A DNA stretch of 64,000 bases, taken from Auricularia sp. M13. Taxonomy: Eukaryota > Basidiomycota > Agaricomycetes > Auriculariales > Auriculariaceae. The stretch lies in contig CM073203.1 of assembly GCA_037042915.1 (NCBI GenBank), positions 2,604,001-2,668,000 on the forward strand, read 5' to 3'. The notes beneath the pieces were generated by a model that saw only the letters and a program-made list of their open reading frames with translations, made no database searches and had not been told where the DNA came from. A program made the translations under genes and the position numbers. Shown here piece after piece: positions 4,401 through 47,819 of this stretch. Every line of letters starts with the position of its first letter. Position 1 is the stretch's first letter.

Positions 4401-4471
4401 GCGTGCTGCTATACCGCTGCTGGAACATTCTCAACAGAGAGAATGAGCTGTCCGGGCCGCAGGTGATGATG
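1453..4471 (+). pseudogene. Helitron RepHel, 5' part (DUF6570, Helitron-like N, HUH-Rep), interrupted
   Basis: This is the N-terminal half of a fungal Helitron replication initiator/helicase. The start is at MDALHGLTKV. In order it shows a Cys-rich segment (CAVCAQEC, CWACNEC, about 1830-2030), a DUF6570-like block (GSWVPADQLQRGFKGN to about 2500), an intron near 2633-2800, and the Helitron-like N domain (FPYGVGLIEQ, TLWITINPND). The Rep HUH motif HLHIL follows at about 3775, then the paired tyrosines WYVTTYQTKK at about 4275. Three single-base frameshifts interrupt it (about 1790, 2155 and 3668), each looking like loss of one base. At 4471 the frame runs into the terminal repeat of the giant inserted element and stops 12 nt later. 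The reading resumes in phase at 44872, so this and the 44872-47819 entry are one broken gene. Confidence 0.9.
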
Positions 4472-4944
4472 TATCCTCCTTAAAGTGCACAAAAATTATT
4501 TTGGTCAAATAAAGGCCTCCTTCAGAATATTTTGGCCTGCCTACAGAAATTTGGCCTATCTCCAGAAGTTCACCCAACATTCAGAATTTGAGGCAGTTTG
4601 TTCAGATCTGCAAGAAGCGGCTTCAGATTCCGCACCCGCATGATCAAACTCCGCGTCGGCGCAATCAAATTTGGCGCCCGTGCGATCAGATTTGGCGCCC
4701 GTCCATTCAGAATCCATCGCGCTTCTCCAGAATCGCACCTCAGTCGTTCAGAATGTACCCCGATGCTTACAGAAATTTGAAGAGTCTATTCAGAATTATT
4801 GCACTTGATCAAAGTTACCTGATCACCGTTCAGATTTAAATATGAGACCAATCAGTTCACTGCTCAGCCAAGAATCTGAGCGTCTTTTCCATATCATCAG
4901 GGCCCGAGACAAGGTTCGGAGGCCTCGGAGCTCTCGAGTTCTCG
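4472..4944 (+). repeat. Left terminal inverted repeat of the giant element
   Basis: About 473 bp match, in inverted orientation, 44377-44871 with few differences. The right copy is about 22 bp longer because it has one more unit of a 21-bp subrepeat (core GGCGCCAAATCTGA). The repeat is rich in spaced TCAGAAT/TCAGATT motifs. Homology ends at GAGTTCTCG. The 22 bases after it separate the TIR from the KDZ target duplication at 4967. Confidence 0.9.
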
Positions 4945-4974
4945 AATCCTCGATCGGTTGTCTGGTTTCGGGAT

Positions 4975-5500
4975 CACCCCAGGCACCTGCCTCGGAGGCA
5001 AAAAAAGGTTCCGTAGGGGGGTTTCTCTCATACAGAGAAACCCCCCTATGGTTTGTCCGACGGACATGCTCAGAGGCCGCCGTTGCCCCTTCGCAGGCCG
5101 CCGCCGCCTCTTCCCAGGCCGCCGCCGCCCCTTCGCAGGCCGCCGCCGCCCTTCGCAGGCCGCCACCGCCCCTTCGCGGGGCCGCCGCCTCTTCGCAGGC
5201 CGCCGCCGTCGTCATCGGCGGGCCCCAGCCCCTCTGGTGTCGTCGTCAACAGCCATCAACGGGCGCTAACGGGGCGGGATCGGCATTCGCCGGACAATGT
5301 CGGACCCGATGTGCGGGACGTCCAAAGCTTCCGGACGCCGGCGCTTATGGCAAATTCCGAGCCGCATCAATCCACCCTCCTTTTGCCTCCGCCGTCGGCC
5401 GCTCGTTGCTTGCCGCCGGCCGTTCGTTCCCGTGCCCCCGCCGGCCGCTTCGACCCGGCTTGCATAAAGAATAATTACATATAATAGCATGTTACTTCAA
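4975..5500 (+). repeat. Left TIR of the KDZ element, with terminal hairpin
   Basis: This is the inverse of 20440-20964. It holds a perfect hairpin at 5014-5048 (arms TAGGGGGGTTTCTCT, loop CATAC), a smaller palindrome TGTCCGACGGACA, and tandem CCGCCGCC-rich units at about 5080-5220. The right copy of the hairpin has mismatches. Such palindromes near a terminus may be transposase-binding sites, which is inference. Confidence 0.9.
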
Positions 5501-5640
5501 TGCATGATTGCTTCTGTTACTACTGTTGCTGTTGCCGTTGTTGGTGCTGTTGCTGCTGTTGGTGCTGTTGGTGCTGTTGCTGCTGTTGCTGCTGTTGGTG
5601 CTGTTGCTGTTGTTGCTGCTGCTGTGGGAGAGGTATATGG
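5501..5640 (+). repeat. GCT/GTT trinucleotide microsatellite
   Basis: Runs of TGCTGTTGCTG and GGTGCTGTT repeat through about 5515-5630. The inverted partner, CAACAGCAGCAACAG, is at about 20360-20415 in the right arm. Open frames through it are low-complexity and not treated as genes. Confidence 0.85.
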
Positions 5641-5997
5641 ATTACTCTGTGAACTAAAATACTGCAGCTGCTGCAGTTGATGCTGTTAGTGCAAATTCAG
5701 ACAGTATGCTGGCGGCACTTTGCTGTAGGGGCAATGCGCTGTTGGTGCTGCTGCTGGTGCTGTACCTCCTTGTCTGCAAGACAGAAACATTATGTACAGC
5801 CTTCGAAAAAAAACCGTGTTATGGCTGCTGCTGCTGGTGTTGCATTGTTCTCCAGTCACGATGCTCAAGACAGTCCGCCGGCGGCCATGTGGTGCTAGCG
5901 TTCGCTGGCCGGCTTCCTCAAGACTGTCCGACTGCAGCCATGGGCTTCATCAAGACAGAAATCCCATCTACCTACAAAACCAATCCGATCGCACAAT

Positions 5998-6590
5998 CCA
6001 GACAGAGCGGCGGCCAGCGACGATGGTGACCCCATACATCCCAGAGATACTACTTACTGAGCGGCGGCCGGCGACGATGGTGACCCCATACACCGCAGAG
6101 ATACAGATGTACAGCGGCCGGGGACGATGGTGACCCCATACATCCCAGAGATATGCACCGTCGCCGGCGAGATCTAACCAGACTGAGCGGCGGCCGGCGG
6201 AGTACCCACTGTCGCCGGCGAGGTCTGTGACGACTGAGCGGCGGCCGGCAACGATGGTGACCCCATACAACCCAGAGATACAGCGGCCGGCGACGATGGC
6301 GATGGTGACCCCATACATCCCAGAGAGACTACTGAGCGGCGGCCGGCGACGATGGTGACCCCATACACCGCAGAGATACAGATGTACAGCGGCCGGGGAT
6401 GATGGTGACCCCATACATCCCAGAGATACAGCAGCCGGCGAGGATGGCGATGGTGACCCCATACATCCCAGAGATACTACTGAGCGGCGGCCGGCGACGA
6501 TGGTGACCCCATACATCGCAGAGATATGCACCGTCGCCGGCGAGATCTAACCAGACTGAGCGGCGGCCGGCGAAGCTTTGTTGGCGGACG
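5998..6590 (+). repeat. Satellite arm of KDZ element, left
   Basis: About ten imperfect copies of a unit built from GGTGACCCCATACATCC, CAGAGATA and GAGCGGCGGCCGGCGACGATG, broken by blocks reading CGCCGGCGAGATCTAACCAG. The same family, inverted, fills 18490-19430. The open frames that cross it repeat the peptide YGVTIVAGRRS and are by-products of the satellite. Confidence 0.9.
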
Positions 6591-6599
6591 AACTGGAAG

Positions 6600-7082
6600 T
6601 CCGCCGGCGGCCAAGGGTGCAATGGTTTTCTGGCCGGGTTCCTCCCAGCCGCCATATGTTTCAGCAAGACAGAAATCACATCTACATGCAAAACCACTCC
6701 AATTGCACAGGTTGTGGATGCAGTCTGACTGCTGAATAGTCTTCATCACAAATTAATAACACGGCCGACGAAGCAATGTCGGCCGATGAGACTCAAGGGA
6801 TGACTTTCGGCCGACGAAGCTTTGTCGGCGGACGAACAGGAAGGGATAACTTCGGGCCGACGATGCGATGTCAGCCGGCCGACGAAGACGAGTTGGCCGA
6901 CGAAGCCCTGCTGGGAACTTGAAGCATTCAGTGCAAATGTGCATTACAAAAACAGTCACTACATTGCGGCACGGGATCATGTTGAAGATCAAGAGGCAAA
7001 TCACGAGAACAGGAAAGAGCAGGATCATGTTGAAGATCACAGGCAAGGGGAGGGGGGAGGTATTGGGCCGAGATGAAGACGA
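6600..7082. other. Subterminal spacer of the KDZ element
   Basis: A second, more diverged set of short repeats (GGCCGACGAAGC, TCGGCGGACGAAC) runs from about 6760 to 6900, followed by AT-richer sequence up to the stop codon of the accessory gene. No gene is supported here. Confidence 0.6.
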
Positions 7083-10000
7083 CTACTCAATGTTAAGGTC
7101 CATGCAGATGGCTGCCAGGCGGTCGTCCATTTCCATCGTCTTCGGCCAGCTGTCGACAATGACTTGTATCTTCTCCTTCGTGCTGGACGACACCGCCTTC
7201 TGCTTCGAGAGGAACCAGTGCGCCATTCCGATTGCCTGGATGTAGTCGTCCTCGAGGCCCCACGGCAGCATCATTGAGCCCAAGCCCTTGATGTCACGTG
7301 CCGTTGGCACCGCCATCTCGCCGTCCAAAGGCCGCGCGCCGGACTTGACGACACTCAGAGAGCGCGCGGCTGGCGACGACACAATGTCAACAAAGGCGAC
7401 CTGCCTTTTTGACGGCGTCGACGGCGCTGGCGTTGCAGAAGGCGTTTTGTTTCTGGCGACGGCGGCGGGCGCCTTGAAGGCGGCGGCGTCACCGGCCGCC
7501 GTCTTTGACTTCTTGGCCGAAGGTGCGTCCGCAGGCTGTGACTCGGGCGGGTCCTTGCGCTTGCGACTCTTCGCCGCTTGCTGCGTCTTGCTTCTCGAGC
7601 CCCTCGAGTGCGTGCGGCGAGTCGGCGCCTCTTCGGCCTTGCCATCAGAGTCGTCATCCGCAAGCTCGTCTTCGCCGTCGGAGTCGACAGCGGCGGGGCC
7701 TTTGACTTGGATGCTGGAAACGGAATATCAGTACAGTCTTTGTTCATCGGACGGACAGAGCTTACCAGATTTCTTTGACGACGGCTTGGGAGGCGCGACT
7801 TTGACTGGCGAGTCCTCGCCGTCGGAATTGGCGGTGGCAGCGGCCTTGGACTTCGACGATGATGCTGCTACAACGATGTGCTTAGTGCCTGGCAACGAGA
7901 GTGCACGAGGTGTTGACGTACCTGTGGCTTTCTTGGGCGGCGCGTCCTTGGCTGACGGCGCGGACTTGGACGGCGGTGCGTTCTTGTCCTTCGTCGGCGC
8001 CGACTCGACGATGACAATGTCGTCGTCGTCTTCGACCAGTTCGTCGCTATCATCGACCACCTTGGCAGACGGTTTCTTCTTCTTTGACCGGGTGGCGGCA
8101 GCCTCTGTTTCGCTGTCCTCAGATTCTGCTGTGTCGTTATAGCTGGTGTTGCCGCCCTTGACAACGGGCAAACTTGACAGGCGGTCGAGGGACCTGACAT
8201 ACGACGTGGGCATGCCGAGCAGGAGGCCGTTGTCGCATAGAGCGCGACGGGTTCCGATCCAGCCTGGCGGCACCCTGGCGTGCCTGCGACAAACGGCTCG
8301 GTCAGCACAATGAGGTGCTTCGGCATGGGCGACCAGGCAATGTGGAGGTCGTTGTGGTAGTCGGTGAAGCGCTTCTGCAACCCCTCGAGCAGCGGAATCT
8401 TGGCCAGCTGCTTCTGCAGCGAGGCCGGCAGCTCGATGGCGTCGCAGACCGCCAGCCGGTCTTCGATTGCACAAGTCGCCATAATCATCGCGCTGGCCTT
8501 GTCCATGCTGTCGAATGAACACTTCTTGACGTCCCGCGCCTCGGCGAACGGAATGAGCCCAGTTGCCGGTGAGCCAACGAGGGTCTTCTTCTGCAGGATG
8601 AGCTCCTTGCAGACCTTGGCCATCGGGACTTGGTTTCCGGTCGGCTTGATCGAAATGCCGACGGCTATCGCATGTGTGAGCCTTTGAGCATCATTCAGCG
8701 GCGGTACTTACACTTCATCAGCCTGACAAAGCTGTCCTGCAACTCGGCGACCGACCACTGTTGACGGAAGACCGTTGGCGGCGGGTGAGGCTGGGGTAGG
8801 TGGTCAGGTTGAACGAACTTGACGGCGAGCAGTGTCTTCAGGTTAGTGGCGTCGCGCATTGTGGGCAGGCGTAGTACGTCGGGCTTGTTGATGTCGACGG
8901 CGATATCCTCCACCTTGACCTGGCCGACGAGCGTTGACCTGCGGAAGTTGGCAGCCTGAACCGCGGTGACATGGTTCTTCACCGCGCCGCGGCGCGCCCT
9001 AGACGATGTAGGAGCAGTTGATGACGGGGCATCGTCGCCGCCGGCGGGATGTTCGTCGGCGGGATGTTCGTCGGCAAGCTCTCCGTCGGCAGAGGCCTTG
9101 GAAACGCGTGTGTCCTTCACAGTGCCGATCGACTTGACAAACGAGGCCTCCTTGATATGAGCGGGAGGTGGCGGCGGGTCGATGCCGAGGTGTTGGGCGA
9201 GTGCAACTGCACGCACATACCCATAACGATTAGAGGCGGCATTGCTAGAGATATCGTCAGTACGTTGAGGCTACAGCTACCCGATATCACTTACAGCGTG
9301 TGGTCGATGTACATCGTCATGACCTCGTCATTGGTGAGGCAACATTTGTCCATGAAGAAGCCGGCCGCGTGTGAGGACTCAATGACGGCGACGGGGTCTG
9401 GAAGGCGCGCATGTCCGAGCGCGATGGTGCTGCCAAGATGAGCGTCGAGATGCCCTGACGAGACTCGAGATAGTTCGACTGGGCGGCGGTCAGTTCAGCG
9501 GCCGCCGTCGAGCGGCGAAACTCACATATTGGTTGATCTGCTTGAAGATCTCGTTGCTGCGATTGGCGAGCTCGTTGGGCGACATGTCCCAGCCGCCATG
9601 GGGATAGTCGACGAAGTATTTCTCGAGAATTTCCCGGACGGTGTCCTCGCCGCCGAACTTGTCTTCGAACAGCGGCCGCAGCCGGCTGCACTCGTCCTGC
9701 GTGAAGTACGTCTTGTCCTTCTCGTCTGGGAACTGGGCGGCGAACCAGGCGTCGAACTTGCGCCGTATTTCGACATCTGAAATGAACTCAGCACAGGTCC
9801 ACTTGTAGATATACAGTGAAATGAAGCACTTACGGGGATTGGTGTTGTTGGCAAACATCAGGAAGTCGTTCGCCCTGTTGAAAGGCCGCTGCAGCTTGGC
9901 GTCCGATGCATGCCCAAGGATAACGCCAGCCGGGATGCCAGTGGCAGCGGCGACTGCGCTTGCGATGTTGCGCATCAAGCGGATGGCGGAAACCTCAATG

Positions 10001-12200
10001 TTCATGACCTGCGCCGTTGGCCGGCCAGGCCGTCCCTGGATGTACGGCGTGGTCACGGGGTTTGCAAGAAGGTCCGTAAGCTCTTGCACCTGATCGGCGA
10101 GAGTGACTGCGCAGCATTGACCGGTGAGCGCACAGCGAGGCGCGGGTCATTCATTACATTGTCGAAGCCCACAGGGCTCTCTGTCTCACTGGCCGACGAA
10201 TCGTCCGAGATGATGACAATGTCGGGCGCGTTGCCCGTGCCTGGCTGCTGAACTGGAGTGGGCCCGCGGCCAGCTGGCGGTGCAGGCTGCTCGGCGGCCG
10301 GCGGCGACGGAGGCGGCGATGCTGGCCCGACGTCCGCTGGTGGTGGTTGCTGCCCGCTGTGGGCTGGCGGTGCCGGCTGCTGGATGGCCGGTGGCGAGGT
10401 GGTGGTGGCACCGGCGACGGCTCGTGCTGGCGCTGGTCGCCTGTTGCTGACTTTGGCTCGTGCTGGCCAACGGCCATAGGCTGCGGCACTTGCTGGTCAT
10501 CGGTCGCGGGCTGCTGCTGCTGGTCATCGGCCGCGGGCTGCTGCTGCTGTTCTTTGTCGACGTCCATCATGTCGCCAGCCGGCCGCTCAGGCTGCTGCTT
10601 ATCGACCTGTTGCTCATCGACCTGCATTCCTTCGTCCTCTGCGAATGGCGTGCTGGTGTTGGTAGGTGCAAAGAGGTCCCGCGCCGTGGAATAGAAGCTG
10701 TGGTACCCCGGGCGCGGCGCCTTGAGGTACGATGCTGGATGGCGCTGGACGTAGCGCGGTGTGGGCGGGTGTTGTCGCGGCGGGCGAATGAATGCGTTGG
10801 CGTCGTCCGGCGAAGCAGACGTTGACAGCGGACGAGCTTGTTGGCCGTCTGGTGTGTGCGGCCGCACTGGTTCTTGGACGGCCGGGCCGTCTGGCGTGCG
10901 TGGGCGACCTGGCGCTGGAACGGCCTGAGTAGGCTCGCGCGCTGGAACGGCCGGAGTCGGGTCGCGCGTAGGCTCGCGCGCTGGAACGGCCGGAGTCGGG
11001 TCGCGCGTTGCGACAGCCATACCTGTCGCGGACGTCGACCCACCATGCCCTGGAGCCGGTGGGCGGGCAGCCCTGGCGATGAGCGCCTCGGCGCGCCTTT
11101 TCTCGTGGGCAACGAGCTTCTTGTCCTCTGTAACCCACATCGTATGTAGCGCAGCCTTGGTGATGTCGGACATCATCTCCTTGCCGAATGCGAGCTTCCA
11201 GGTTGCCTCGCCGCAGCGCTCGATGACGTTGGCAGGGACACGGGTCCCTTTCATGCGGCGGACCAAGCTGGCGAAGTGGACGGGGGCAAGTTCTTGCTCC
11301 GCGTGTAGGGAGACAAATAGTGGCGCGTCGTCGAGCAGCTTGAGCACGGCCGTGACCTGCTCGACCATTTCGCACGCCGTGGCTGCGGCATCTTCGCTGT
11401 CGACGCAGTTGTACGCCGCGTTGAGGAGCTCCTCCTGCACGCTCTGTGGCGCGTACATTTTCTTCGCGTCCTCCAGCAGGCGCTCGATGATGTCGACCAG
11501 GTCCTCGGCCATGGGTTGCGCATATGCCTCGAGGCGATCGCCTGTGGCCGGTGGCTCGGTCGTGAGGGCACTCGCTCCTGCTGGCGGCGGGCCAGCCAGC
11601 TCTTTGCCCTGGCCGCCGGCTGCCGCCAATTCCTGCGTGAGGGACATCGTCCTGTCAAACTCCACCATGGCGGCGAGTGTCGCGGGCGTCATAGCCTTGT
11701 CCATTTCGTCCTCGTCCGATGCGTGCTCCTCCTGACGATAAGTCAGCTCGCCGGCGAATTCATGTTACTCGGCCGTGTACTCACTGCATCCCAAAAACGC
11801 GATTCATCGGCAGCCGTGGGCTGCGTGGGCTGCTCGCTGGGTTGCCCGCTGTCCTCGTCCTGGTCGGACTCCCCAGGAACCGGCGACGGTCCTTTTGTTG
11901 GCCGCTGGCGGCGGCATCGGCAGCGTCGTCCTCGGGCTCCTGATAATGAGGAAACTGGTCAGCGAACGGTGGCAGCGGGTGCTCGACACTAACTTGGATA
12001 GGCCCGGCATCGTCGCCGTCATTTTCCTCGTCCTGCGCCTGTGTTTGCGCAGCCTTCTTCGCACGAGTCCGTGTCGCCTTGCTGCCAGCCTGAAAGCAAC
12101 AACGTGAGTGAGTGGGCGCCGGGAGCATGTAACTAAGACGCACCTTGGCTGGCCTAGCATCTCCAGCGCTCCTTCTGCTTGCGCTTCGTTGCGGCCATTC
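7083..12200 (-). CDS. KDZ-element accessory protein, long, disordered and acidic, NLS- and SIM-like motifs
   Basis: I do not recognise a catalytic domain. Open segments joined by plausible short introns run from about 12198 down to the stop at 7083. The main blocks are 12090-11800 (acidic, QDEENDGDDAG), 11735-10100 (helical start EEHASDEDEMDKAMTP, then Pro/Gln-rich), 10089-9836, 9780-9525, 9395-9295, 9235-8710, 8660-7770 and 7710-7083. A basic signal (RKRKDPPE…AKKSK) suggests nuclear location. Two hydrophobic-acidic stretches, DIVIISDDSS at about 10210 and DIVIVESAP at about 8010, resemble SUMO-interacting motifs. The first exons contain a frame inconsistency near 11900, so start and exon 2 are uncertain. 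It is divergent from the transposase gene, so it is probably the element's second gene, though it could be two genes. Confidence 0.6.
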
Positions 12201-13605
12201 TGCAGACAACGTTAGGCTGCTTACGCAGCGCGCAGCTCGCCAAACGGACCTGCGCGGTGGGTCCACGCCTCGCGAGGGGGAGGGGGGAGGGGAGGGACGG
12301 GGATGGGGCGTTGCGCAACCGGGTGGATGACGGTAAGAGGGCAACCGTCGGACTTGCAATCCGCGTCAACGTTCGCCGTCCAAGTCCAGCGAGAGACTTT
12401 GGAGGCGTCAAATTGTATTTCAAAGCCAATTCTGTGTGGCGTGACGTGCAAGGTATGTTTGTGAAGATATCTATTGAGTCGAACTTTGAGAATTGTCATG
12501 TGGACGTCAATGAACCTGTTACTAATTGTCCGCATGTTCAGCAGCATGAATAGTCCCACCCACTCCGAGCGCTATGTCGCGTATAAAGTAGTCTAATTCA
12601 ACCATTATTGGTCATAAGACATACTCTAAAGAATGTAAAGGAAAGCGATGACGTGGGCGCAAGATATACTCATTTTCTAGTCGGCGGCCACCGTCCAAAA
12701 TGCAGTACATGGCCACCTGACAGGGTACTAGGTCACTCCCTGAGGTTTCTTAGGCGCAGCACACCTTAGGCAGGCTATCCAAATAGGAATCAAGTGATAT
12801 GTTGGCAGAAGAAGGTGTTTGTGTTGCAGGTGAACGAGGTTACTGAGGTTTCACCAAAGTTGCAACTGGCAATGCACTCGCTTGTTCTCCGTTCACCCAA
12901 GTTGTGGCACATGTCTCACAGCATAGAACAATTTATACCTGCTTAATGAGTCCTATAGGAGTGCCTAGTGAGGCCCGAATACATTTCCGACATTTGCAGC
13001 CTTGAATAAGGCGTTTCGACGGCGGTTTGCACGCAGACAGCAACACTGTATCAAGTTGTTCGAGTTGTTGTGAGGTTTATTACCACAACCTCAGGCCTGT
13101 AAGTCATTAATTGAATTAGGATGACCTAGTGTACACTATTCCTGATTGGAAAGGCGACTCAGGGAGTGCAGCAAGGTGCGCAGGCTGCTCAACTGGCCGG
13201 TGAACCGGCTGCCGGCACAAACTGTCTCGCCGGCCGCCGCTATGAAATTGCTAGAACACGAAGGACACATGCATCACGCATTGGAAGCAGTGCTGCACCC
13301 TGTTTGTGTGCGGAATCCTGCTCCAACATGTTCGTTCTTCCTGGGCGGTCTTTGCTTACATAAGCGCTATTGCTCTTGTCGCGACAAAGTCGATAAGGGT
13401 CGCAAGTGAGTTGAGCCCCGCAAAACGGTACAAACATGCCAAGGAAGTCTGTCTCACGCCGTTTGCGCAAAATTAAACTCTGTTAGCCTCAGGGACATTC
13501 CCTGACAGCTTGGACAGCTACTCCCTTTGCGCCACCGGCGTATCCCGGATTATCAAAGTCCGAAGTCAGGCTGGCCGGCGAACGACATTTTCATACCTCG
13601 ATTTA
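12201..13605. other. Divergent intergenic region of the KDZ element
   Basis: About 1.4 kb separates the two divergent KDZ-element genes and probably holds both promoters. A TATAAA lies at 12582. The rest is AT-richer and shows no convincing coding frame. An upstream exon of the transposase between 13140 and 13600 cannot be excluded, because a frame is open from 13510. Confidence 0.5.
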
Positions 13606-16600
13606 ATGGCCCTTACGCTTCTACCCACGAGCCACGACATTCGCCGGGCCTACCTGCGTAAACAATGGGCTTTGACGGCGCCCTCTGCAACGCGCAAACG
13701 GCGTAAAAAGGCCAAGGACGCTGGCATCTATATTTTGCCGGCCAATTTTCTGGCCAACGCCTCGCGACTTCCACACCCGGCGGCCCATCTTACAGCATTG
13801 CGCTCAAGGCCAGCAAAACGTCCCCCAGCTCCGCCGGCCGTCGAAGACCTGCCAGCTGCTGAAGACACGGGGCAAGATCCAGGTGACGACGGGCTACCGG
13901 CCATTGGATTTGAGGATTCATTTGACTATGCCATGCCGCCCATCCAACGCAGAAAGAAGTCCACCAACCTCGAGGCATCAGCCAAGAAAGAAGCCCTTTA
14001 TTCTCGATGGAATGCACTGCTCCTGCTGTTAAAGACTTCCTTCACCGCCGCCGGCCGGCCACACCATTCACCGCCGACAACTGACTTCGCCGACGACTTC
14101 GCACTCTGCTGCCCACACTCGTGCCACCCCAGGCGGACCCGCATTGTCTTTGTGATGTGGACTTGTGAGCTTGCCTTCGCTTCATCCAGTTGGACTTTGC
14201 TAATCTGTCTGTGCAGCCTTTGAAATCAAGCAGCTGCTGTTTTGCGAACATTCGCCGCTTCCGGCTACGCTACTCGCCCATGGCTTCTTTGCCTCCTCCC
14301 CTGTGTCTACCCACTACGCGTTTTCAACCCAGTTGCTCGACTTCTACCTGGAACTTCAGCGGCAGGCCGGCAGCTCAGCAATGGCACTTGCAGCCGCTCT
14401 GCACAGCAGCCATCGTCTGAACGGCTTTGTGGTGCGACAGAAGAATGGCCTCCCAGTCCAGGAGGGCTACAGGCGACCGCTTGGCGATGCAATGAAGTGG
14501 TACGACCTTGTACGGCGAAAAATCGAATTCGACCTGCAAGAGCGGCTCAACAATGCCAGAGCAAGTCTGGATGCGCCGCCGACCGTTTCTCCACCGCTGC
14601 CAGCTGTCCACCCACCACCTGCTCGGGTTGCTCATCTCATGTCTCCGCCTGCCACGCCCCACGGCCCTCGGAACTCGTCAGGCACAGGAGCAGACAGTCA
14701 GCCGCCGGTTGCTGATGGTGGGCCGACGGCCGACCCACTGGCCGGCGCTCAACAGCTGGCTGCCGACGAGCAACAGACCGCCGGCGTACTGGACGGCGCT
14801 CAACAGCCCTCCGCCAATGTCGTCAATGCTCAACAACCGGCCGCCGACGAGGAGCAGACTGCCGCCGTACTGGCCGGTGCAACTCCTGCTCAGCGGCTAT
14901 GGATGCAGGTAGCCGTCAAGCTCGGTTGGAAGCTTCGCGGGCGCACGGCCGTCTCCCCAGACCTCTATATGCGCTGCCCGAGCTGCTTTTACACCGCGCA
15001 AAACGGTCGGCCGTTGGACAGGTATGCTGGTTCCTTTTGGCTTTTGACTGGGCTGACTGCTTTGACTTCAGTGAACCAGATTATCAGGTTGCGTCTGATG
15101 GCAACTTCATGCACCGCCACCTGAAGACCGCCGGCGACTGTCCGCCATTCGACTTCCAATTTGTGCATTTCCTCCCAAAGGAGTTCGTCGACGCCGTCGG
15201 GGCCTGCATCGACATGTGCCGCAAGCGCCCCGCAAAGCCCTACACCGGCATCGTGCCTGAGGCCGCGTTCAAGCAGTGCGAGAATTCACACACGGCCGGC
15301 GACGGCTCCAAGCAGAAGACCGCCGGCGAGATGTACGACGACCGGGGACTCATGGCCATGGTCTGCCGCCATGACATCCCTGTCGCACTCTGCAACATCG
15401 ACACACCTGGCGAGCAGCAGAAGTACAAGATCGCACTCAGCATCTTTCTTTACCTGCACACCCCGGATACGGCCACCTACGGCGACGCCTACGACATCAA
15501 CTGTGTCGGCTGGCGAACGCTCATCGCGGTGCGTGTCTCTCCCACCTTCCCGGCTGCCCTGACGGTGCATATAGTATGACATTCTGCCTCAGGATTGGCT
15601 CAACAGAACAAGCTTTGTCACGTCAGCCATGCACGCCTACGCCCACCAATGGGAGTGTCAGCTTGCATTCAACCCGCGGCTCAAAGAGGGGACGGGTCTC
15701 GCCGACGGCGAGGGCGTGGAACGGCTTTGGTCGCGTCTTTGCGACGTTATTGCCATTCTCCGACATGTATCGGTACGCCGCCGGCCAAGCTATGCTTCGG
15801 CGGCAAGCTGACTTTGCTGTGCAGCGCAAACGGCGGCTCAGCATCCTTGAGCGGCAACTCGACTGGATTGTTCGTCAGCTGCGAGATGACCTTGGCCGGT
15901 GGCTGGCAAGGCGCAGAAAGGCCACTGCGGACAAGCAGTGGCATGCATCTCGCATTCTGCACACTTGTGGTCATTCGCCCGAGTTCCTCGCTGGCCAATG
16001 GATTTTGCAGAAGGAAGCGCAGCTCTCTGTCAGGCGTCGTACGTATCTTTGTTCGCCAAGCCCTATTCATGTTCTGACCGCTGACAGATCCCGCTCCACG
16101 CCTCAAGAAGGAGCTCGAGTCGGTCATGGCCCTTCAGGAGCAGATTGACGGCGTCGAAACTGCCATTCACGCTCTTGAGCCTGTTCTGACCGCCGTTCGA
16201 GGACCAGAGGCTGCCGCCTCGCGACAGCAACTTAATGCCCTGCGCGTCACGCAGGGAGAGCTCAACAAGCAGGCCGAGGAACTCTATGGTTCCCTCAACG
16301 TCCGCTCCTCCTTCCCCGAGATTGCACAGTACGGTTGGGAGTTCGCGAAAACTTTGGTCATGGCCTACGACGCCAAATGCATCGCCCGGCAAAAGCTCAC
16401 TGGCAGATTCTTGGAATGGGAGCGTATCGACCAGGCCGTCGGCGGTGCGCACTCTGCTCTTGGTCAGCCGCCGTCCAATATTTTTGCACTGCATTTCCTT
16501 GCTGACCGCAAAACGGATGCAGGTACAAAGACCCACCAGAAGACTGTCCGATCCCTCACAAAGCGCACACCAGCCATTAAAGCCGCGATCGCACGGTACA

Positions 16601-18366: not shown

Positions 18367-18489
18367 TTAGTGTCATTTTTGGCCATCGGCCGCTTCATTT
18401 CTTATTAAGCTGGTTGCTTTGCCGACGGACACTTCAAGACACCCTGAAGTTGTTCGCTGGCGGCCGAAATGGCGGGGTTGCCGCCGGCC

Positions 18490-20290: not shown

Positions 20291-20439
20291 GCAGCAGCAG
20301 CCATAACACGGTTTTTTTTCGAAGGCTGTACATAATGTTTCTGTCTTGCAGACAAGGAGGTACAGCACCAACAGCAGCAACAGCACCAACAGCAGCAACA
20401 GCAACAGCAACAGAAGCAATCATGCATTGAAGTAACATG

Positions 20440-23932: not shown

Positions 23933-23935
23933 GAC

Positions 23936-34343: not shown

Positions 34344-34458
34344 ATTAGTATTAGAAGCAACTTTATGGAAATTATGACTAGGTTTTGGTCAATCTGGGAA
34401 GGTCTGTCTAGGTATTAAGGGAAGGACTGATGAAAGAAAGGTAGTATGGGGGTGGAAA

Positions 34459-35480: not shown

Positions 35481-35584
35481 GAACTTGGCAGAGGTCACGA
35501 AAGACAGGGCGCAATGAAAGTGTGCAAGTTGACTGTCGAACAAAGGGACAAAATTTCAAAATCCGCCAGTCCTTGTCTTCAGCT
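35481..35584. promoter_or_regulatory. Divergent promoter region, BTB gene / transposase
   Basis: Only 104 bp separate the two start codons. No clear TATA box is visible. Shared control is inferred from the spacing alone. Confidence 0.4.
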
Positions 35585-38343: not shown

Positions 38344-38350
38344 GACCCCT

Positions 38351-38640
38351 AGAAAACCGTGCGCAGGGTCCGTGCGCATCCGTGCGCAAGAATATCCGTG
38401 CGCAGAACTTCCGTGTGCAGGGTTAGAACTTTCGTGCGCATGAGTTTAACTTTCGTGCGCAGGGTCCAAATGTCCGTGCGCACTTTTCAAAATCCGTGCG
38501 CAGGGTCCTGGTCATCCGTGCGCATGAAATGTGCTTTCATGCGCAATTTTCACAATCCGTGCGCAGGCTCCTGATATCTGTGTGCAGTTTTCACAATCCG
38601 TGCGCAAAGTACAAAATCCGTGCGCAGTGTGAAAAACATC
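38351..38640 (+). repeat. TCCGTGCGCA interspersed array, left block
   Basis: About 15 copies of the decamer TCCGTGCGCA or one-base variants occur with irregular AT-rich spacers. The same array, in the same orientation, is at 40455-40700. Confidence 0.9.
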
Positions 38641-38850
38641 AAAAATCTTTTGAAGATGTATATCATAGATGTATTTATGGCACTGTGTGCATTGATAGAG
38701 GTGCACATCTCTAGTGTCAACTATTTTAGATAAACTACTGTGCTACATGATTTGTTCGAAATTTCACTTCCACGTTAGTACAGGATCAGAAATATTCAGC
38801 CAGCATGTTGGTTTGTGTTCTAACCTGATTTCCTGAAGAGGCTCTAAGTA

Positions 38851-39713
38851 CAGTGGAGGACATGGACATTTGAACACCCCAATTTTTTACTCCTGTAAAT
38901 CTACAATTCCACAACATTGGGTAGTCCCTTTCTCCTACCAATGACATGTGTTGATGAGAAGTAGCCAAGCTTTAACTTGGTGGTGGATTCATGTCGATTG
39001 CATTACTCTGTCACGAGTTATGGTGGCAAAACTGATGTGACCATATGCGCACCACACAGTCTGCCGAATTTTATCCAAGCTAGGTACCTCTGAGACCTGT
39101 TGCACATAGGTAGATGAGAAGGTACACTACATGAATACACTCAAGGAATCTCATTTGCAGACTGCTTCATAGCTCAGAGCGCAGACAACTGTGAAACACA
39201 GAATTGGCAAAATTTGAACAATGCACAATCCGCTCTGGAGGAGGTCTCAGGTCATGATGCCTAACAGGCAATGAGATATATGGACATACATTGTGACCCC
39301 CAAGTGCAAAGTCCAGAAGCTAATCAGTTGGTCTTTGAGAGAGCATACAAATTTTGCACATTCTGTGTTTCACAGTTGTCTGCGCTCTGAGCTATGAAGC
39401 AGTCTGCAAATGAGATTCCTTGAGTGTATTCATGTAGTGTACCTTCTCATCTACCTATGTGCAACAGGTCTCAGAGGTACCTGGCTTGGATAAAATTCGG
39501 CAGGCTGTGTGGTGTGCATATGGTCACATCAGTTTTGCCACCATAACTCGTGACAGAGTAATGCAATCGACATGAATCCACCACCAAGTTAAAGCTTGGC
39601 TACTTCTCATCAACACATGCCATTGGTAGGAGAAAGGGACTACCCAATGTTGTGGAATTGTAGATTTACAGGAGTAAAAAATTGGGGTGTTCAAATGTCC
39701 ATGTCCTCCACTG
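38851..39713. mobile_element. Tc1/mariner-like hairpin MITE, 863 bp
   Basis: Two arms of about 370 bp (38851-39220 and 39345-39713) are nearly perfect inverted copies around a loop of about 125 bp. The ends read CAGTGGAGGACATGGACA and its inverse, with TA outside both ends (38849-38850 and 39714-39715). This matches the CAGTG-type termini and TA target of Tc1/mariner elements. There is no transposase. Confidence 0.88.
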
Positions 39714-39715
39714 TA

Positions 39716-40454
39716 GGTACTCATAACTCAAAAGATGTTACCCTCATACAGTTATGTTATGTTAGGTTAGATTAAGCTTGCTAAGGTTAGAACTTATGTT
39801 ATTTTGGTTCATGAATTCAGGAGTAATATCCTTTGCAGCCTGAGTAACCATGATTCACTCATCCACTAATAGATTCTAAGCCCTGATCCCAGTTTGGTCA
39901 AAAAATCTCAAATGAATTGTCTGGGTCAAGGAGAGACGAGACACGTGTTTTGGGCCGTGAAGTGGACCTGGAACAAGCCAAAGTTTGCTGTGTCTGCTCC
40001 ACCACCTCTGTGCCACAGAGGTGCTCACTCTCCTGCATCACATCACCATCCCGTCCCCTCAGATCTTCTTGTTGATTAGATGGGTTCCAACCTCATCCTC
40101 ACCATGCCATCTCACAGAGGACTTGCACGCCCACACCATATTATACTCAAGTTACCAGGATGTATTTTCTGTAGTTTGGACTAGTGGTTAACATGTACAT
40201 GTTCTTAATGGATTCGAAACACCCTCAGTTCAAATCCAGTCATAGACATCCATTTTGTGGCACTTCTACCTGTGTATACTACATTCTGTAGTGTATTAAC
40301 AAACTGTACTTGAGCAGTCAATTGCAACAAGACTTATGGAAATTGTTGGTGTTTGTTAATGAACTTCAATGAGTTCAATCAAGTCGCCTAGATGTGCCAA
40401 AGTGAAAAAAAATAATGCAGTTGTGCTTTATACAAAATAATGCAGTTGTGCTTT
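39716..40454. other. AT-rich non-coding interior of the 2.56-kb TIR element
   Basis: No coding frame of note. A partial direct repeat, AATGCAGTTGTGCTTTATAC, occurs twice at 40413-40459. Confidence 0.6.
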
Positions 40455-40700
40455 ATACAGAATCCGTGCGCAACACACAAAATCCGTGCGCAGTGTCAGC
40501 ATGTCCGTGCGCATGTCTACCATGTCCGTGCGCATGATTCTAACATCCGTGCGCAGGGTCCAAAATGTCGTGCGCACAAAATCACAATCCGTGCGCAGTC
40601 CTCCTTCATCCGTGCGCACGGATTTACAATCCGTGCGCATGATTTCAACTTTCGTGCACAGTGTGAAAAATCCGTGCGCAGTCCGTGCACAACGTGCGCA
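40455..40700 (+). repeat. TCCGTGCGCA interspersed array, right block
   Basis: Same decamer family and same orientation as 38351-38640, with about 12 copies. Confidence 0.9.
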
Positions 40701-40912
40701 ACATGCGCGCGGAACTTGAAACCAGTAATTTGACAATATCTTGGCCAGTTTTTAAGGTTTGATAGGTTTGTGCACACAGACATGTGCGGGTAGGTGTAAG
40801 CTACTGGAATGACCCTCAACAATCATTCTATAATGTCTGAACAGTCTTCTAGGGCAGGATTACTGCTGCGCACGGACCTCGCGCACGTGCGCACGGTTTT
40901 CTCGTGACCCCT

Positions 40913-41836
40913 GCATGCCATAGATAGCAGCCAATAGACGCCGTTGCTGCCCTCCTACTCTGCGCACTGCGGTCCAACTCAATCAGCTGAATGGCATGCA
41001 CTGGTATGCGCACTCGCCGGTCGTTATGCTGAATACAAGCAGTCAGCAATATCTGGTATGTTTGCCCTTACAGATAACGTCTACCCTCAATCCTGATGTT
41101 ACTGCTGCTGCTGCAATCCAGTGCAGAAATCACTTGAGTCAGGCGTGTGCACTGTCTGTTGAACCACGCCATTAGTGTGGCTGCAGTCAGCGCATCCGGA
41201 CCGACTCGCAGCAGCCCTTGTCACCGTGCGCGCAGGACAGCCGTTCCATCATGGCCAATGGAATCTGTATGCTGTAAGTAGGGCGTGTCAAGCTCAATGC
41301 ACTGTGACGCTGATGCTGGCCTGTACAGAAACGTTGCCCGCGCTGTCACCATATGGCCAAGTTCTGCCTCAAAAGCGTCAGCAGCATTGCAGGTATGACC
41401 TGCAGAATATCGCTGATGACGGCGGCTTACCATTGTCCTTCGCCACTTACCTTCTGTTGCAGCTCCATCAAGCTCGCACGCTGTATCCTGGGTGCCTGCG
41501 ACGTGCTTCATGCTCAATTGCGCTACACTGTACGCGCGGTGCTGCTGCGTCGCGTGTCTGCTCATCGCGCTGCTGCTGCCAGCAATGGAGAATATACGAC
41601 AGTGCAACGGCGAGGAGAAAAACAAGTAAGGCATTCAATTAAGGCTATCATTAGAGGCAATATCAGTAGGCGTTGGCGTTGGGTAATGCGACTAGTTCAA
41701 TGAAAGAATTAATAGGTGTCTAACAAATGAAGCTTATTAAAGGACTGGGATCTTCGAGAGCAGGCCCTGATTGAGTAGTGGATGGGCTAGGAAATAATAT
41801 AGTGCTGGGAGGTACGCTGGCAGTGTGGCACAGCCT
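40913..41836. other. No gene supported
   Basis: Frames on both strands reach 155 codons (for example 41175-41642 on the plus strand) but show no family motif and overlap one another. They may be remnants of giant-element cargo. I make no call. Confidence 0.4.
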
Positions 41837-43437
41837 CTATGGGCTGGACGGGGTGTTGTAAGCCGATAGAAGCCCTTTGAGGAACTTTCCAGCGCGAAGG
41901 AGCTTCGCCTCAGAAGTTGCTGTGCGCTCTGGGCGCTTCACGGCATCCGTGCCTTTGCCAGCATAAGTAAAATATTCGATTAATAGGATGCGTCGGCGCG
42001 TACCAGGAAGACGAGAGTCCACACTTGACGGACTACCCGGGTACGATGCAGAAGATGCACTGCTCACTACCAGAATAACACTCAGCGGCTTGGATTACAC
42101 CATGGGCAAAAGTTGAACTTACCAGTTCTTCCGCGCTTGCTGGAGCCCTCCCCAGATTTAGAAAGAGAGGCAGACTTGCGCTTAACGCCCCGGTGTTGCT
42201 CAGGGACCTCATCCACAGAATCAGATGCAGCGTTGTCCATAGACTCAGACAGAGTGCTGAGAGCAGCAGCGTCATTGTCTCCGGCCTGAGCATCGTCTGC
42301 AGCTTGCGTGTCGTTCTCGTTGACAGGCTCAAATGGTGTCTCCCAGTTGCCGCGGTAGATTTCCGGCACAAAGTTCGCAGTCACTAATGACTCTAGTCAG
42401 CAGAAGTTGCACCAAGAAGAGCGTTGAGAACCTACCAAGGTAAAGCGTCGTTACGTGGGTCTTCTTGTTGGTGTGCAGTGCCCTCTGGAGGAGCTTCCCG
42501 GTCGGAGCGTCGTCGCTATATGGCACCAAGTTCTTCCCATTCTTGTTCATGCCACAAACGCGCCAGATAGGTTGCTGTGCACCCGATGTCACCATGCTCC
42601 GAAGGAAAGGGATGGCACGCGGAAAACAAGTCTGCTCGATCCATTCGGTAACCTGCGCCGACGTCCAAGCCGTATCATAGTAAGCTGGGCCAGGCTGAGG
42701 CTTATATGCCAGGCCGTCGCGAACCATATCTGCTATCGCCTGATCCTGCGGGAAGGGGACCTTGACGGAATGATAGATGCGGCGACCGTTCACATCCTAA
42801 ATCAATTGCGAATTTGAGCAGCAGGAAAGAGCTGACTGCAACGTGACGTACGAGGTCTGCACTCTCGAGGCCATAGGGAATCAAGATCACCTGCTCCACA
42901 GGCTGTGTGGTATCGGGCTGCGCGAGGGATTTCTGAAGAGGATCACATCAGCCATCATCATGCAATATACTATTTGCCTTTTACCGTCTGCTGCTTCTTC
43001 TGCGCCACAAGTCCTGGTCGATAGCCATTCATGGTCTCCTGGCGAGCCTGCGCGGCAAAGTCCTTGTCCACGGCTGCACTCTTGACGAAGGACGGTTTCG
43101 GAACGCCAGCTGCCGCGAACATGGCATTGATCGCGGACTTCTGCGCCTCTGTGGAGGTCGGATGAGGTACGATAGCCGGCTCCGCAACACCAACAGTCGT
43201 GACGACCGTGGAGTTTACTGAGGCTGGGATGGGCGGGACAGCTTGCGGTGCTGCCTCTGAGACAACGGGGGTCTGTGGCTCCAAACTCCCAGTGGCCGCT
43301 GCCTGTGGCTGCGCAGGGTCATGGTCAATATCCCAGTGACCGCACCGCCAACAGTCAAGCCTCTGTGCGACGGCGTTGAACTGCCACATAGGGCAGGGGC
43401 ACTTGTGGCACTTCCCACCAGGAGGCGGCGGAGGCAT
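41837..43437 (-). CDS. Hypothetical cargo protein with N-terminal Cys cluster
   Basis: Five exons join cleanly: 43437-42989 (start MPPPPPGGKCHKCPC), a short second exon encoding PVEQVILIPYGLESADL (about 42930-42850), 42795-42440, 42382-42122 and 42060-41837. The introns have GT..AG ends and are about 50-65 nt. The N-terminus has CHKCPC … LDCWRCGHWDIDH, a zinc-ribbon-like arrangement. The middle part contains TEWIEQTCFPRAIPFL and MNKNGKNLVPYSDD. The C-terminal part is acidic, then basic (GVKRKSASLSKSG … KRGRTGK), compatible with nuclear location. No frameshift is seen. I cannot assign a family or function. Confidence 0.65.
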
Positions 43438-43689
43438 GATAGCGACAAGGGGGAAGGAGAAACGAGTGAGGAGATGGAACGGTAAAGAATGCGACGAGCC
43501 TTTTAAAGGGATCCTAGCCGAAGTTCGGTAAACGTAACATGTGCATGAGTGTGCACAGCCCAGACCTGTGGCTATTTTGGAAAGCAGAGCAGCAGCATCT
43601 TCATGCAGGCCTCAGAAAAAAGACGAGCACACAGTGAAATTCTGGGATGAACGGACCATTTCGGCGTGCATGTGGTGTTCTGGACAGGA

Positions 43690-44330
43690 AAACAATTAAA
43701 ATACCATACACCTTATGTTTGTCGTGTACACTGGGAAAGAGGAAAAGGAAGAAGTAATTATTGTAGAGTTGTCAAACAACGAGCAGACGACGAGCAGAGC
43801 AAGAGCGATGGCAAAAATGGGGTCAGGTTGAAGGAGGGCCAATGAAATGCATAAATGAAAGAGTACCATAGGACGCTTGAAGCATATAGCATGGTCAACG
43901 TGAATCGCCAGTGTAGCTGCCCTGGGCGCAATCGTAGACTGTTGCGACTCGCCCTCTGGACTCTGTGGCACAACCAGAAGACAAAGACGATCACGTAGAG
44001 CCTGCGCACCCAGAGGTTGACGTGGATCGCGTTGAGCACGACAAGCAGCAGGAAGGGCAAGCCTACGCCGTCAACGATGAGCGCCTTGCTGCTGTCGAAG
44101 AACTGGTAAACGATATAGCCAAGCAGCAGAACGTGGGTCAGAGAGATCCCAAACGCGCACGGCGATGGCGTGAAGTACGACTCACGCGCGTTCTTCAGGA
44201 TGTCCTGCCAGCCACACGCGTTCAACGCCCTGCTGCTCGTTGCAACTCCGTTGTGACAGTTGCAGCGCCAAGAGTGCATGAGGCTAGTATTTGTGCGGTC
44301 GCGCTGGCAGAGCCTAAACGGCGGACTCCG
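43690..44330 (-). pseudogene. Membrane-protein remnant
   Basis: A minus-strand frame encodes hydrophobic helices (GISLTHVLLLGYIVYQFF, LPFLLLVVLNAIHVNLWV, LYVIVFVFWL) resembling part of a multi-pass fungal membrane protein. The borders run into non-coding sequence, and upstream the right TIR of the giant element begins within 100 bp. Probably a truncated copy; the family is not identified. Confidence 0.4.
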
Positions 44331-44376
44331 ACAGTCCCGGCTGGTCGCTCATTCGAAATGCCGTCGGACAGCCGCC

Positions 44377-44871
44377 CGAGAACTCGAGAGCTCCGAGGCC
44401 TCCGAACCTTGTCTCGGGGCCCTGATGATATGGAAAAGACGCTCAGATTCTTGGCTGAGCAGTGAACTGATTGGTCTTGTATTTAAATCTGAATCATGAT
44501 CAGGTGACTTTCATCAAGTGCAAGAATTCTGAATAGGCTATTTAAATTTCTGTAAGCATCAGGGTACATTCTGAACGACTGAGGTGCGATTCTGGAGAAG
44601 CTCGATGGATTCTGAACTGACGGGCGCCAAATCTGAACGGACAGGCGCCAAATCTGATCGCACGGGCGCCAAATCTGATTGCGCCGACACGGAGTTTGAT
44701 CACGCGGGTGTGGAATCTGAAGCTGCTTCTTGCAGATCTGAACAAATTGCCTCAAATTCTGGATGTTGGGTGAAATTCTGGAGATAAGCCAAAATTCTGT
44801 AGGCAGGCCAAAATATTCTGAAGGAGGCCGTTTTTTGACCAAAATATTTTTTGTGCACTTTAAGGAGGATA
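44377..44871 (-). repeat. Right terminal inverted repeat of the giant element
   Basis: 495 bp, inverse of 4472-4944, ending GCACTTTAAGGAGGATA next to the ATGATG target duplication. It includes three to four 21-bp units with the core GGCGCCAAATCTGA at 44625-44690, one more than the left copy. Confidence 0.9.
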
Positions 44872-47819
44872 ATGATGTATCTGATGGGATGGGGCGATAC
44901 GTTCCAGTCACATCGATACGCTCCCATCTATTGGTCGTCGGTCAGAGGGTTTCTATTGCGTAATTTTTCAGAATTTCGAAAGCGGCAAGTTGTTTTATCA
45001 TATAAAGTTCTATCTACTTACAAAGAGTGTCAGGCGCTGCGAAGGTACCAACGAGGATGTGGAGACCACAGAGCCAAACGGCACAGACCAGGAAGCTGGT
45101 CAAGTGTCAGAATCTCCTGATACGGTCAGTTGATGTTGTAGGTGCGACACAATCAAGTACTTACTTCGATTGAATAGGGCGACGTCGTTACGCTCGAAAT
45201 CCAGCGTAACGGCGATGTACTTGGTCGCTCGCAGATCAACGATTATGCGTATCGCGGTGATGATTTGGAAAGGTTCAACCTTCTCCAGTTCACAGTAGAC
45301 ACCTACGAAGACCGCGTTACTGAGCGCGATAAAGCTTTGGAGCAGGAGCACGTACCTGACGGCATGGAGCAGCGTCGATTTCGAGGTAGACCGAGAGCTC
45401 AGCGAAGTCGGTACCAGGAGCATCATCCTCGTCACCAAACTCGCCTACGCATCCTTCGCCCTGACAACCACAACACACTTCCCAACATCATTGGCGGATA
45501 CTTCCCACTGGAACGCGATCCAAATCAGCGCGACTTCTTCTATGCATCTATGCTCGCGCTGTTGAAGCCTTGGCGTACCTACAACGATCTGAAGCCAGCA
45601 GAAATTACTTGGGTGGCAGCTTTTACAGAGTGGGAGGCGATGGCTCCGCAGTCTGCGCTTGACGTTCTGCGGAATATCCGGTTCTATCAAGAGAGTCAGG
45701 AAGCTGCTCGGGTTGAACGAGAACGGGACGAGCAGGCTGGCTGGCATACCAGTGGGACAGAGCGTGGTATGGGACACGATCAGCTGGACGCGATGGAAGA
45801 GGACAGTGCCGAGCCATCGGAGACAGTGTCTTTCCGTGTCACCGAAGAGGATGTCGAGCGAGCGAAAGCTGCTGCAGAAGGCGGGCGCGAAGAGGTTCAT
45901 GCAGGTGCAGCAATGGTTGCAGCTGTCGAGGCCGGTTTATTCTCTTCTGGGACGGACGAGTGGCCTGCTTCGCAGTGTGTGGCCGGATGAGCGGTTGGTG
46001 GGCACATGCAGCGGCTGCAGTCCTGGCAGGACGCAATGGCCGCAGATCGCGCTGTGCAACAAGAGCTTGCCGGTACCGAGATAGAACCTAACGACGGTAT
46101 GAAGGCTGCATTAGTAGTTGTTGTTCCTAGCTGACACTGCGTACAGGTGATGTTGTTATGGACACTAGTCAGGGTTTGGACGACAGCGACCTTGGATCCG
46201 TACTCCATGCGCCCGAGCTTGGATCCGACATTGATGCAGATGCGTCAATTCTTAACGAGGAACAGCGGCGCGCGTACGACATTATTGTCAACCATCTCCA
46301 TGCTGTTCTGGACGGCAAGCAGCCCGACCAATTGCTCATGCAGATCCAGGGCGAGGGCGGCACTGGGAAGACAAAGGTTATTGAGCTGGTCACGGCCACG
46401 TTTCAGCAGCGGAACATTGCGCACTGGCTACGTAAAGGAGCGTATACTGGCATTGCGGCATCCCTAATAGGTGGCAGCACTCTACATACGTTAGCGAAAA
46501 TCTCGCGTCGCAACGGACGCATACCGGAACGGACACGACGTTGGCTCGAGGAATATTGGCGCCACGTTCAGTATCTCATTATCGATGAGATATCAATGCT
46601 GTCGCGCGACTTTTTCGACACGCTGTCACGCATCATATCGGAGGCGAAGGGGGGCAACAGCGACCTGCCGTTTGGAGGCCTGAATGTCATCATCTGCGGC
46701 GACTTTCATCAATTCCCACCCGTTGTGAAGAAAAAATCAAGCGCACTTTTCTGGCCTAGTCGAGCCGAATACGACACGACTAGTGAAATGACGGGCCGTC
46801 AAATTTACGAGCAGTTCCAAACTGTGGTCATCCTGCGGCAGCAGATGCGCGCGGCGGATCCTGTCTGGACAGCATTCTTGCGACGGTTGCGGCATGGTGC
46901 ATGCACGAAGGACGATATCGACATGCTTCGCAGTCTGCAGCTGGGCCCCGATGACAACATTGCGACTGACCCGGCTTGGTCTGACGCAGTTCTTGTGACG
47001 CCAAGACATGCTGTTCGTCGCCGCTGGAATAGTGCCGCCCTGCGCAGGCATTGTTCACGGACAGGGGAGCGACTCTACCGTTGCCCTGCGGATGATCGGA
47101 TTGGCGGTCGGCCGCTCACGCTTGTGGAACGCTACGCCTTGTATGCGAGCAAGACTGGGAGCAGCGAACGACGGCGGCTGCCGGACGAGGTCGAAGTGGC
47201 AGTTGGGATGAGGGTGATGGTGACCTTCAATATCCAGACGGAGTTGGATGTTGCAAATGGCGCACGAGGTACCGTTGTCGGCGTGGTTCTTCATCCTGAC
47301 GAGCCCGAGATCAATCCAGCGGCCCATGAGGTCAAGCTTCGCTACGCACCCGCCTACATCCTAGTAAAGCTGGACAAGACACGCGCGAAGCAGCTGGACG
47401 GGCTCGATGAGGGTGTTATCCCCATAGCGCCAATGCAGCAAAGCTTTGGCTTGGATACGGCCTTGGGAAGGCAATCCGTTGAGCGCAGCCAGCTGCCTAT
47501 TACAGCGGCATACGCCTTCACCGACTATCGCATGCAGGGTCAGACGCTGTGCCCAGTCATCGTCGATATAGCAACACCACCCACCGGCCAACTATCCGGG
47601 TTTAGCGTCTACGTTGCATGCTCACGCGGGCGAGGTCGAGATGCCATCCGATTGCTGCGCGGCTTCGACTACAAGTTATTCATGACACATCCGAGTGAAT
47701 ATCTTCGTCTGGAAGACGAACGGTTAGAAGGATTGGATGTGGAGACTAAAAGGCTTCACTTGCTGGCAACCTCACGTACTCAGGATGTGTTCATGTCCAT
47801 GCAGACGGATGGAGTGTAG
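44872..47819 (+). pseudogene. Helitron RepHel, 3' part with PIF1-type helicase
   Basis: The reading resumes at YLMGWGDTFQSHRYAPIYW, directly continuing the Rep region lost at 4471. After an acidic stretch and an intron (about 45121-45177) comes the conserved block INDYAYRGDDLERFNLLQF (about 45235). A one-base shift near 45985 leads to GGHMQRLQSWQDAMA, and an intron at about 46096-46146 leads to the helicase: Walker A GEGGTGKTK (46350), Walker B YLIIDEISML (46575), GDFHQFPPV (46700), AYAFTDYRMQGQT (47510) and VYVACSRGRG (47605). The helicase exon alone is open for 553 codons to the stop at 47817. Another disturbed stretch lies at 44950-45050. Without its N-terminal half the gene cannot make a full RepHel. 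Confidence 0.93.

Follow-up and report, generated by a model that had tools for sequence, protein, structure and literature searches.

What kind of transposon extends over 40.4 kb between intact ends, and did all of it move at once? The question is raised by a 64,000-nucleotide stretch of Auricularia sp. M13 (assembly GCA_037042915.1, contig CM073203.1, positions 2,604,001 to 2,668,000; hereafter the window), in which an interval of this length interrupts the gene of a Helitron. Our favoured answer, to which we give a probability of about 0.82, is that the interval is a DNA transposon of the IS3EU/GingerRoot type, some 17 kb long, that carries a TET-like dioxygenase gene and host DNA, that was enlarged to 40.4 kb by nested insertions, and whose copies have exchanged sequence. 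Its gene content and mosaic history are more interesting than its length. Coordinates of all features in the window are collected in Table 1.

Ends, target sites and the split Helitron

An earlier interpretation made from the letters of the window (the sequence-only reading) had proposed a single insertion, bounded by terminal inverted repeats (TIRs), that splits a Helitron open reading frame (ORF) without disturbing its phase. The ends, the flanking ATGATG duplication, and the phase across the junction were all confirmed. A codon boundary falls at 4466 in the left Helitron ORF, ATG ATG TAT CTG ATG GGA is read in the same phase in the right half, and the frame is continuous across one copy of ATGATG. 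Searching the same genome with the joined junction peptide gave fourteen matches, two of which are the Helitron halves themselves. The other twelve are Helitron-like open frames (467-2058 aa, 26-39% identical) that cross the junction uninterrupted, with weak E-values of 4e-5 to 5e-4.

The sequence-only reading had also suggested a search for other TIR-bounded copies, and the genome does hold a second full element, a 17,253-bp sister copy on contig C6. Both full copies have termini of the TA..TA type, TATCCTCC..GGAGGATA. Their TIRs of about 0.49 kb are 90% identical between left and right in the window copy (BLAST) and 89% in the sister copy, and each copy is flanked by a 6-bp target-site duplication (TSD), ATGATG in the window and GGCCGT on either side of the sister. 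Two long TIR pairs together with two different exact 6-bp duplications make a chance origin far too improbable. Misassembly of the 4.4-45 kb region is unlikely, to judge from the sequence; the window contains no N and lies inside a 3.2-Mb contig.

With the left end as query, the TIR search of the genome returned at least five matches, namely the two ends of the window copy, the two ends of the sister, and one lone end on contig C6 (C6:562583-563041). This lone end is 87% identical to the left end and is probably older; no partner for it was found within C6:543001-593000. Among the four ends of the two copies, fourteen informative sites unite the two left ends and the two right ends, and none pairs the ends by copy. 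Because these sites group by side, the difference between left and right ends predates either insertion and cannot be used to date it.

Transposase and superfamily

The outer element contains a transposase gene in exons, with a helix-turn-helix (HTH) region and an rva_4 integrase core. In the window copy, rva_4 matches fall at 36348-36479 and, with one stop read through, at 36505-36975. The main integrase frame, identical at 211 of 211 amino acids between window and sister copies, matches rva_4 and HTH_8, and Pfam found HTH matches and no zinc-binding integrase domain upstream of the integrase core. Against the NCBI models, the transposase gave weak matches to IS481 (1.3e-8) and IS3 (1.7e-8), both far below the equivalog cut-offs. 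These results bear out the assignment to an integrase-like superfamily of DNA transposons made in the sequence-only reading. The exons also hold what we take to be the D, D, and E residues, read by motif. The protein database contains many relatives of the integrase, with 522 of 889 candidates matching at E 0.001, and proteins of Lentinula edodes and Tylopilus felleus are among the best 120 listed. PDB sequence searches with the integrase gave no useful match.

IS3EU/GingerRoot elements, as characterized in the relevant part of PMC10045372, have TA..TA termini, a 6-bp TSD, and a transposase related to those of IS3 and IS481. Since its ends are TA..TA, its TSDs are 6 bp long, and its integrase, with HTH and rva_4, is weakly similar to the IS3 and IS481 models, the outer element shares all three traits and fits an autonomous-looking DNA transposon of this known superfamily. 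It differs from the elements treated in that part of the source in its 0.49-kb TIRs, its captured host genes, and its dioxygenase gene, and it is about 17 kb long. Ginger1 and Ginger2, for which the same source gives a TSD of 4 bp, or of 4 or 5 bp, were considered and rejected; both copies here have 6 bp. By analogy with the superfamily, the HTH-DDE transposase would bind the 0.49-kb inverted ends, excise the element, and connect it to the target strands at points separated by 6 bp, which would leave the 6-bp TSD. A member of IS3EU/GingerRoot would also be expected to have no HHCC zinc motif upstream of the core.

A possible TET/JBP-like dioxygenase gene

A multi-exon gene with an HxD...H motif lies upstream of the transposase on the same strand. 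Only two relatives of its protein were found among 7996 scored candidates, both of them hypothetical proteins of Exidia glandulosa that are 37-39% identical. When exons are joined, six of six dioxygenase domains match Tet_JBP (best E 0.0012), and HxD and the distal H of the Fe(II) triad are invariant in all six sequences. PDB sequence searches with the dioxygenase gave no useful match.

Four loci with a dioxygenase-like domain of this kind were found in the genome (the window copy, the sister copy, and two on contig C10), and all four have an integrase within 10 kb on the same strand. At the two C10 loci the integrase is 62-68% identical and lies downstream on the same strand, about 3 kb and about 8 kb off; the 62% integrase was read through one stop. 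The changes that separate the dioxygenase exons of the window and sister copies number 52 at codon position 1, 28 at position 2, and 164 at position 3 (chi-square P 7e-29, a value that treats changes as independent and depends on exon edges placed by eye). This codon-position pattern is the mark of purifying selection. One exon has no codon bias (14, 9, 13), and the last exon as delimited includes some bases of intron at its start, among which the frame of the window copy meets a stop. The gene would probably serve to counter silencing by cytosine methylation.

The TET assignment is weak, and several results weigh against it or against the wider reading. The best Tet_JBP score of the exon-joined domains is 18.5 bits, compared with a Pfam cut-off of 34.9, and the E-value is 0.063 on a single sister-copy ORF and 0.05 and 0.076 on the two Exidia proteins. 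A dioxygenase profile run against solved structures found nothing below E 1. Two fold predictions, which bear on the double-stranded beta-helix expected of such enzymes, were poor (mean pLDDT, the predicted local distance difference test, of 40 and 47), and a PDB search with the second of these models gave no matches at E 0.001. A genome search with Tet_JBP found twenty-seven loci, four of them over the cut-off, and none of the four dioxygenase loci was included, which makes these a divergent group; among fourteen control genomes for this search, one (E. coli) gave a signal below the cut-off. Eleven of the fifteen integrase loci found have none of the four dioxygenase loci nearby, so that the dioxygenase is not a fixed part of such elements. 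Lastly, the search for the uninterrupted Helitron site proposed in the sequence-only reading failed at the DNA level; no such copy was found in the assembly, and both matches of the joined-flank search were to the flanks.

A BAG-domain host gene was also considered as cargo and rejected. The weak BAG match (E 1.4e-4, below the cut-off) appears, by eye, to fall within the N-terminal helical part that the dioxygenase gene product shares with the Exidia proteins.

Captured host DNA

Host DNA was identified in both copies. In the sister copy, Pfam matched it to Syntaxin_2 (E 4.3e-24) and Nas2_N (E 4.2e-10). Positions 3172-5092 of the sister are 90% identical to C3:3267172-3269067, and two more pieces farther upstream are 81% and 86% identical to this locus; the native syntaxin-Nas2 locus lies in C3:3265001-3271000. 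Identity to it is patchy, ranging from 88 to 100% per 150 bases (sister copy, up to position 5012), with one such stretch at 100% and others at 88-98%, and may reflect later conversion. Because the match of both copies ends at the same native base, the syntaxin and Nas2 sequence was probably captured in one event, before the two copies separated. The captured syntaxin copies look decayed. That of the sister shows small length differences from the native locus within aligned exon sequence, and that of the window copy is interrupted by a long terminal repeat (LTR) element and lacks about 340 bases. The dioxygenase gene and the captured DNA partly account for the extra length of the outer element.

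Mosaic copies

Identity between the window and sister copies was compared in segments of at most 300 bases, in sister coordinates. Sister positions 1-3551 are 90-100% identical to the window copy where comparable, and positions 8958-17253 are 97-100% identical except for two segments at 94.7 and 96.0%. The middle, between 3551 and 8958, is 58-91% identical. Its right boundary is sharp, with differences thinning out past position 8904, within the dioxygenase gene; the left boundary, near 3.6 kb, is more gradual. Of 192 codons in the first dioxygenase exon, 75 (39%) differ at the third position, with first and second positions constrained. The first three integrase exons differ at one site in 304 codons and the last at eleven sites in 164.

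With old, selected sequence adjoining young sequence in this way, the mosaic points to recombination or conversion between family members. After their separation the two copies would have exchanged sequence, leaving near-identical outer parts and a strongly diverged middle. No donor of the middle segment turned up in the assembly, which yielded only two full copies, and the lack of a visible donor would also suit rapid change confined to one segment of copies that are otherwise young. We consider such fast evolution unlikely, since third positions that differ this much beside constrained first and second positions indicate an old divergence next to young sequence.

In the near-identical parts, fifty transitions fall at 1163 CpG C/G sites and twenty-three at 3465 other C/G sites (odds ratio 6.7, P 5e-15). 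Sites were scored as CpG if CpG in either copy, which inflates the odds ratio somewhat. The excess fits methylation and deamination of cytosines in these copies, which would give the dioxygenase a purpose.

How 17 kb probably became 40 kb

The sequence-only reading had described one very large insertion. The single element with intact TIRs stands, and what moved was very probably smaller than 40.4 kb. Three nested insertions (a KDZ transposon, an LTR retrotransposon, and a small non-autonomous element), each with its own target duplication, are all absent from the sister copy. For the KDZ transposon and the small element, the sister preserves the exact empty site; that of the LTR element is not seen because the neighbouring 559-bp stretch has no counterpart in the sister. 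Removing the three insertions and one target duplicate each from the 40,400 bp leaves 17,504 bp, close to the length of the sister (17,253 bp) and in agreement with the core of about 17.5 kb estimated earlier. Since all three have TSDs of their own and are missing from the sister, the unit that moved would be about 17 kb and the remainder is very probably later growth by nesting. On the favoured reading, then, one copy inserted into the Helitron gene, and the KDZ element, the LTR retrotransposon, and the small element would have inserted later to give 40.4 kb.

That the Helitron received the whole 40.4-kb unit, its three passengers included, is improbable. Intact outer TIRs and TSD do bound the entire interval, as this would predict, but the only other full copy lacks all three insertions, no second nested copy appears among the five TIR matches, and the 99.8% identity of one passenger's LTRs marks a recent insertion. 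A Polinton/Maverick or Starship-like giant element is more improbable still. Large size, long TIRs, and a 6-bp TSD would suit a Polinton, and host cargo would suit a Starship, the latter being defined by a tyrosine-recombinase captain. However, the Pfam scan, which covered twenty of the thirty-eight sister-copy ORFs of 120 aa or more, found no DNA polymerase B, capsid, packaging ATPase, or tyrosine recombinase, and the integrase is of the rva_4 type with an HTH. The least credible alternative makes the KDZ transposon the main unit and the outer ends incidental; a KDZ transposase domain does lie within the interval, but that element is bounded by ends and an 8-bp TSD of its own, and in the sister the outer ends occur without it. 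For the same reason, namely that the KDZ domain sits in a nested element with its own TSD, KDZ was ruled out as the transposase of the outer element.

Relation to known systems

TET+ IS3EU elements are known from rust fungi and Tuber indicum (Kojima 2025, PMC12730594). For Agaricomycotina, section 3.2 of that paper names Kyakuja, Zisupton, EnSpm, Plavaka, and Helitron2; the sections drawn on here name no TET+ IS3EU in mushroom-class fungi, and its supplement may hold an unlisted case. By the account given there, the rust and Tuber elements share with ours a TET/JBP or TET/JBP-like gene, a 6-bp TSD, and TAY..RTA ends. The window element, by contrast, has the ends TATCC and not TAYGG, its dioxygenase has HxD and is therefore not of the PE type (HxE), no alpha-kinase match was found in the twenty of thirty-eight sister ORFs scanned, the dioxygenase lies upstream of the transposase on the same strand, and the host is an Agaricomycete. 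The AG-type TET of Kyakuja and Zisupton, as described in the same paper, are likewise transposon-borne in mushrooms and have HxD, the motif given there for every TET type except PE. They were compared by description only, and the four dioxygenase loci here fall outside the twenty-seven Tet_JBP loci of this genome.

Gene capture by fungal DNA transposons is also known, in the form of transduplicated histone H3 in hAT elements (PMC6710886, in the part concerned with these elements). There too a host gene was copied between transposon ends, whereas the superfamily and the genes are different and here pieces of two neighbouring host genes are involved. The portion of a giant-transposon review drawn on here (PMC6431247) makes no mention of IS3EU or KDZ, and no published account of the window element was found among titles and abstract openings.

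What is new is the TET/JBP-like gene, the syntaxin and Nas2 pieces, and the mosaic copies; the superfamily itself is known. If the favoured reading is true, the known range of transposon-borne TET-like genes would come to include IS3EU elements from mushroom-class fungi, and the gene concerned is one that escapes the standard Tet_JBP profile. Near-identical transposase halves joined to old, selected, and differing dioxygenase halves would provide a natural test of whether the transposon is served by such genes. The element would also be an example of a DNA transposon whose cargo includes parts of two adjacent host genes, and offer a clean case of a 17-kb element coming to look 40 kb long. More tentatively, a mushroom-class IS3EU lineage might carry a previously undescribed TET-like clade as an anti-silencing gene beside its transposase, pick up host genes, and have its middle block reshuffled among diverged members of the family by recombination inside shared ends, giving conserved ends around an exchangeable cassette; we would not bet on this wider model at present.

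Table 1. Positions of the outer element, its parts, its nested insertions and the split Helitron in the window.
Feature	Position	Strand	Remarks
Helitron ORF, left part	3650..4471	+	Helitron_like_N, E 4.5e-8
Left TSD	4466..4471	.	ATGATG
Outer IS3EU-type element	4472..44871	+	40,400 bp; 17,504 bp without three nested insertions and one duplicated target stretch each
Left TIR	4472..4966	+	about 0.49 kb; begins TATCCTCC
KDZ transposon TSD	4967-4974 and 20965-20972		TTCGGGAT, 8 bp
Nested KDZ transposon	4975..20964	+	15,990 bp; long TIRs; ends CACCCCAGG..CCTGGGGTG
Segment of about 1 kb, inverted relative to sister copy	22187..23216	-	
Captured host DNA, first part of syntaxin gene	23714..23902	+	97.9% to C3 locus
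Nested LTR retrotransposon	24467..28782	.	4,316 bp; TSD ATACG; LTRs about 856 bp, 99.8% identical
Captured host DNA, later syntaxin part and Nas2 piece	28786..29914	+	match stops at same native base as sister copy
TET/JBP-like dioxygenase gene (HxD...H), multi-exon	31907..34340	+	tblastn with Exidia P0121; N-terminal helical part upstream
Transposase (HTH and rva_4 integrase core), in exons	35586..37222	+	outer limits by eye from sister copy
Nested non-autonomous element	38343..40910	.	2,568 bp; TSD CTGCATGCC; internal 368-nt hairpin arms
Right-arm open frames	42329..43611	-	counterparts present in sister copy
Right TIR	44377..44871	-	finishes in GGAGGATA
Right TSD	44872..44877	.	ATGATG
Helitron gene, right part	44872..47819	+	PIF1 helicase in ORF 46131-47819

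Other features of the window

The nested KDZ element has very long inverted ends that are rich in repeats. Its KDZ domain lies in the ORF at 14716-15579 (E 1.5e-17) and a CxC1 domain in the ORF at 14204-15124; ten further ORFs of the element scanned with Pfam gave no match. A search with the KDZ end found twenty-three matches in all, including the element's own two ends. Near relatives (96-98%) lie at C10:1820219, C8:1708106, and C8:1723360, and further ones are more distant. In the 2,568-bp element, 38849-39715 consists of two 368-nt arms, 98% complementary and 131 nt apart, which make a strong hairpin.

The right-arm protein had no homologues among 4490 candidates. The inverted segment at 22187-23216 overlaps a repeat-like stretch with 69-73% identity to C6:1449929, C10:3038938, and other places, and may be an older element of its own. 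Sister positions 2472-3362 (about 0.9 kb) have no match of more than 80 bases in the window.

Beyond the right half of the Helitron, 61764-64000 is a second copy of the nested LTR element in opposite orientation, about 99.6% identical, which continues past the window edge. At 54083-59207, a minus-strand ORF lies between direct repeats that are 100% identical over at least 300 bp; the ORF is one with a weak aspartyl-protease match (E 0.0024, below the cut-off); this is possibly a young LTR retrotransposon. Repeats rich in GTCGGCACT occur in both orientations at 52073-53096 and 60390-61048.

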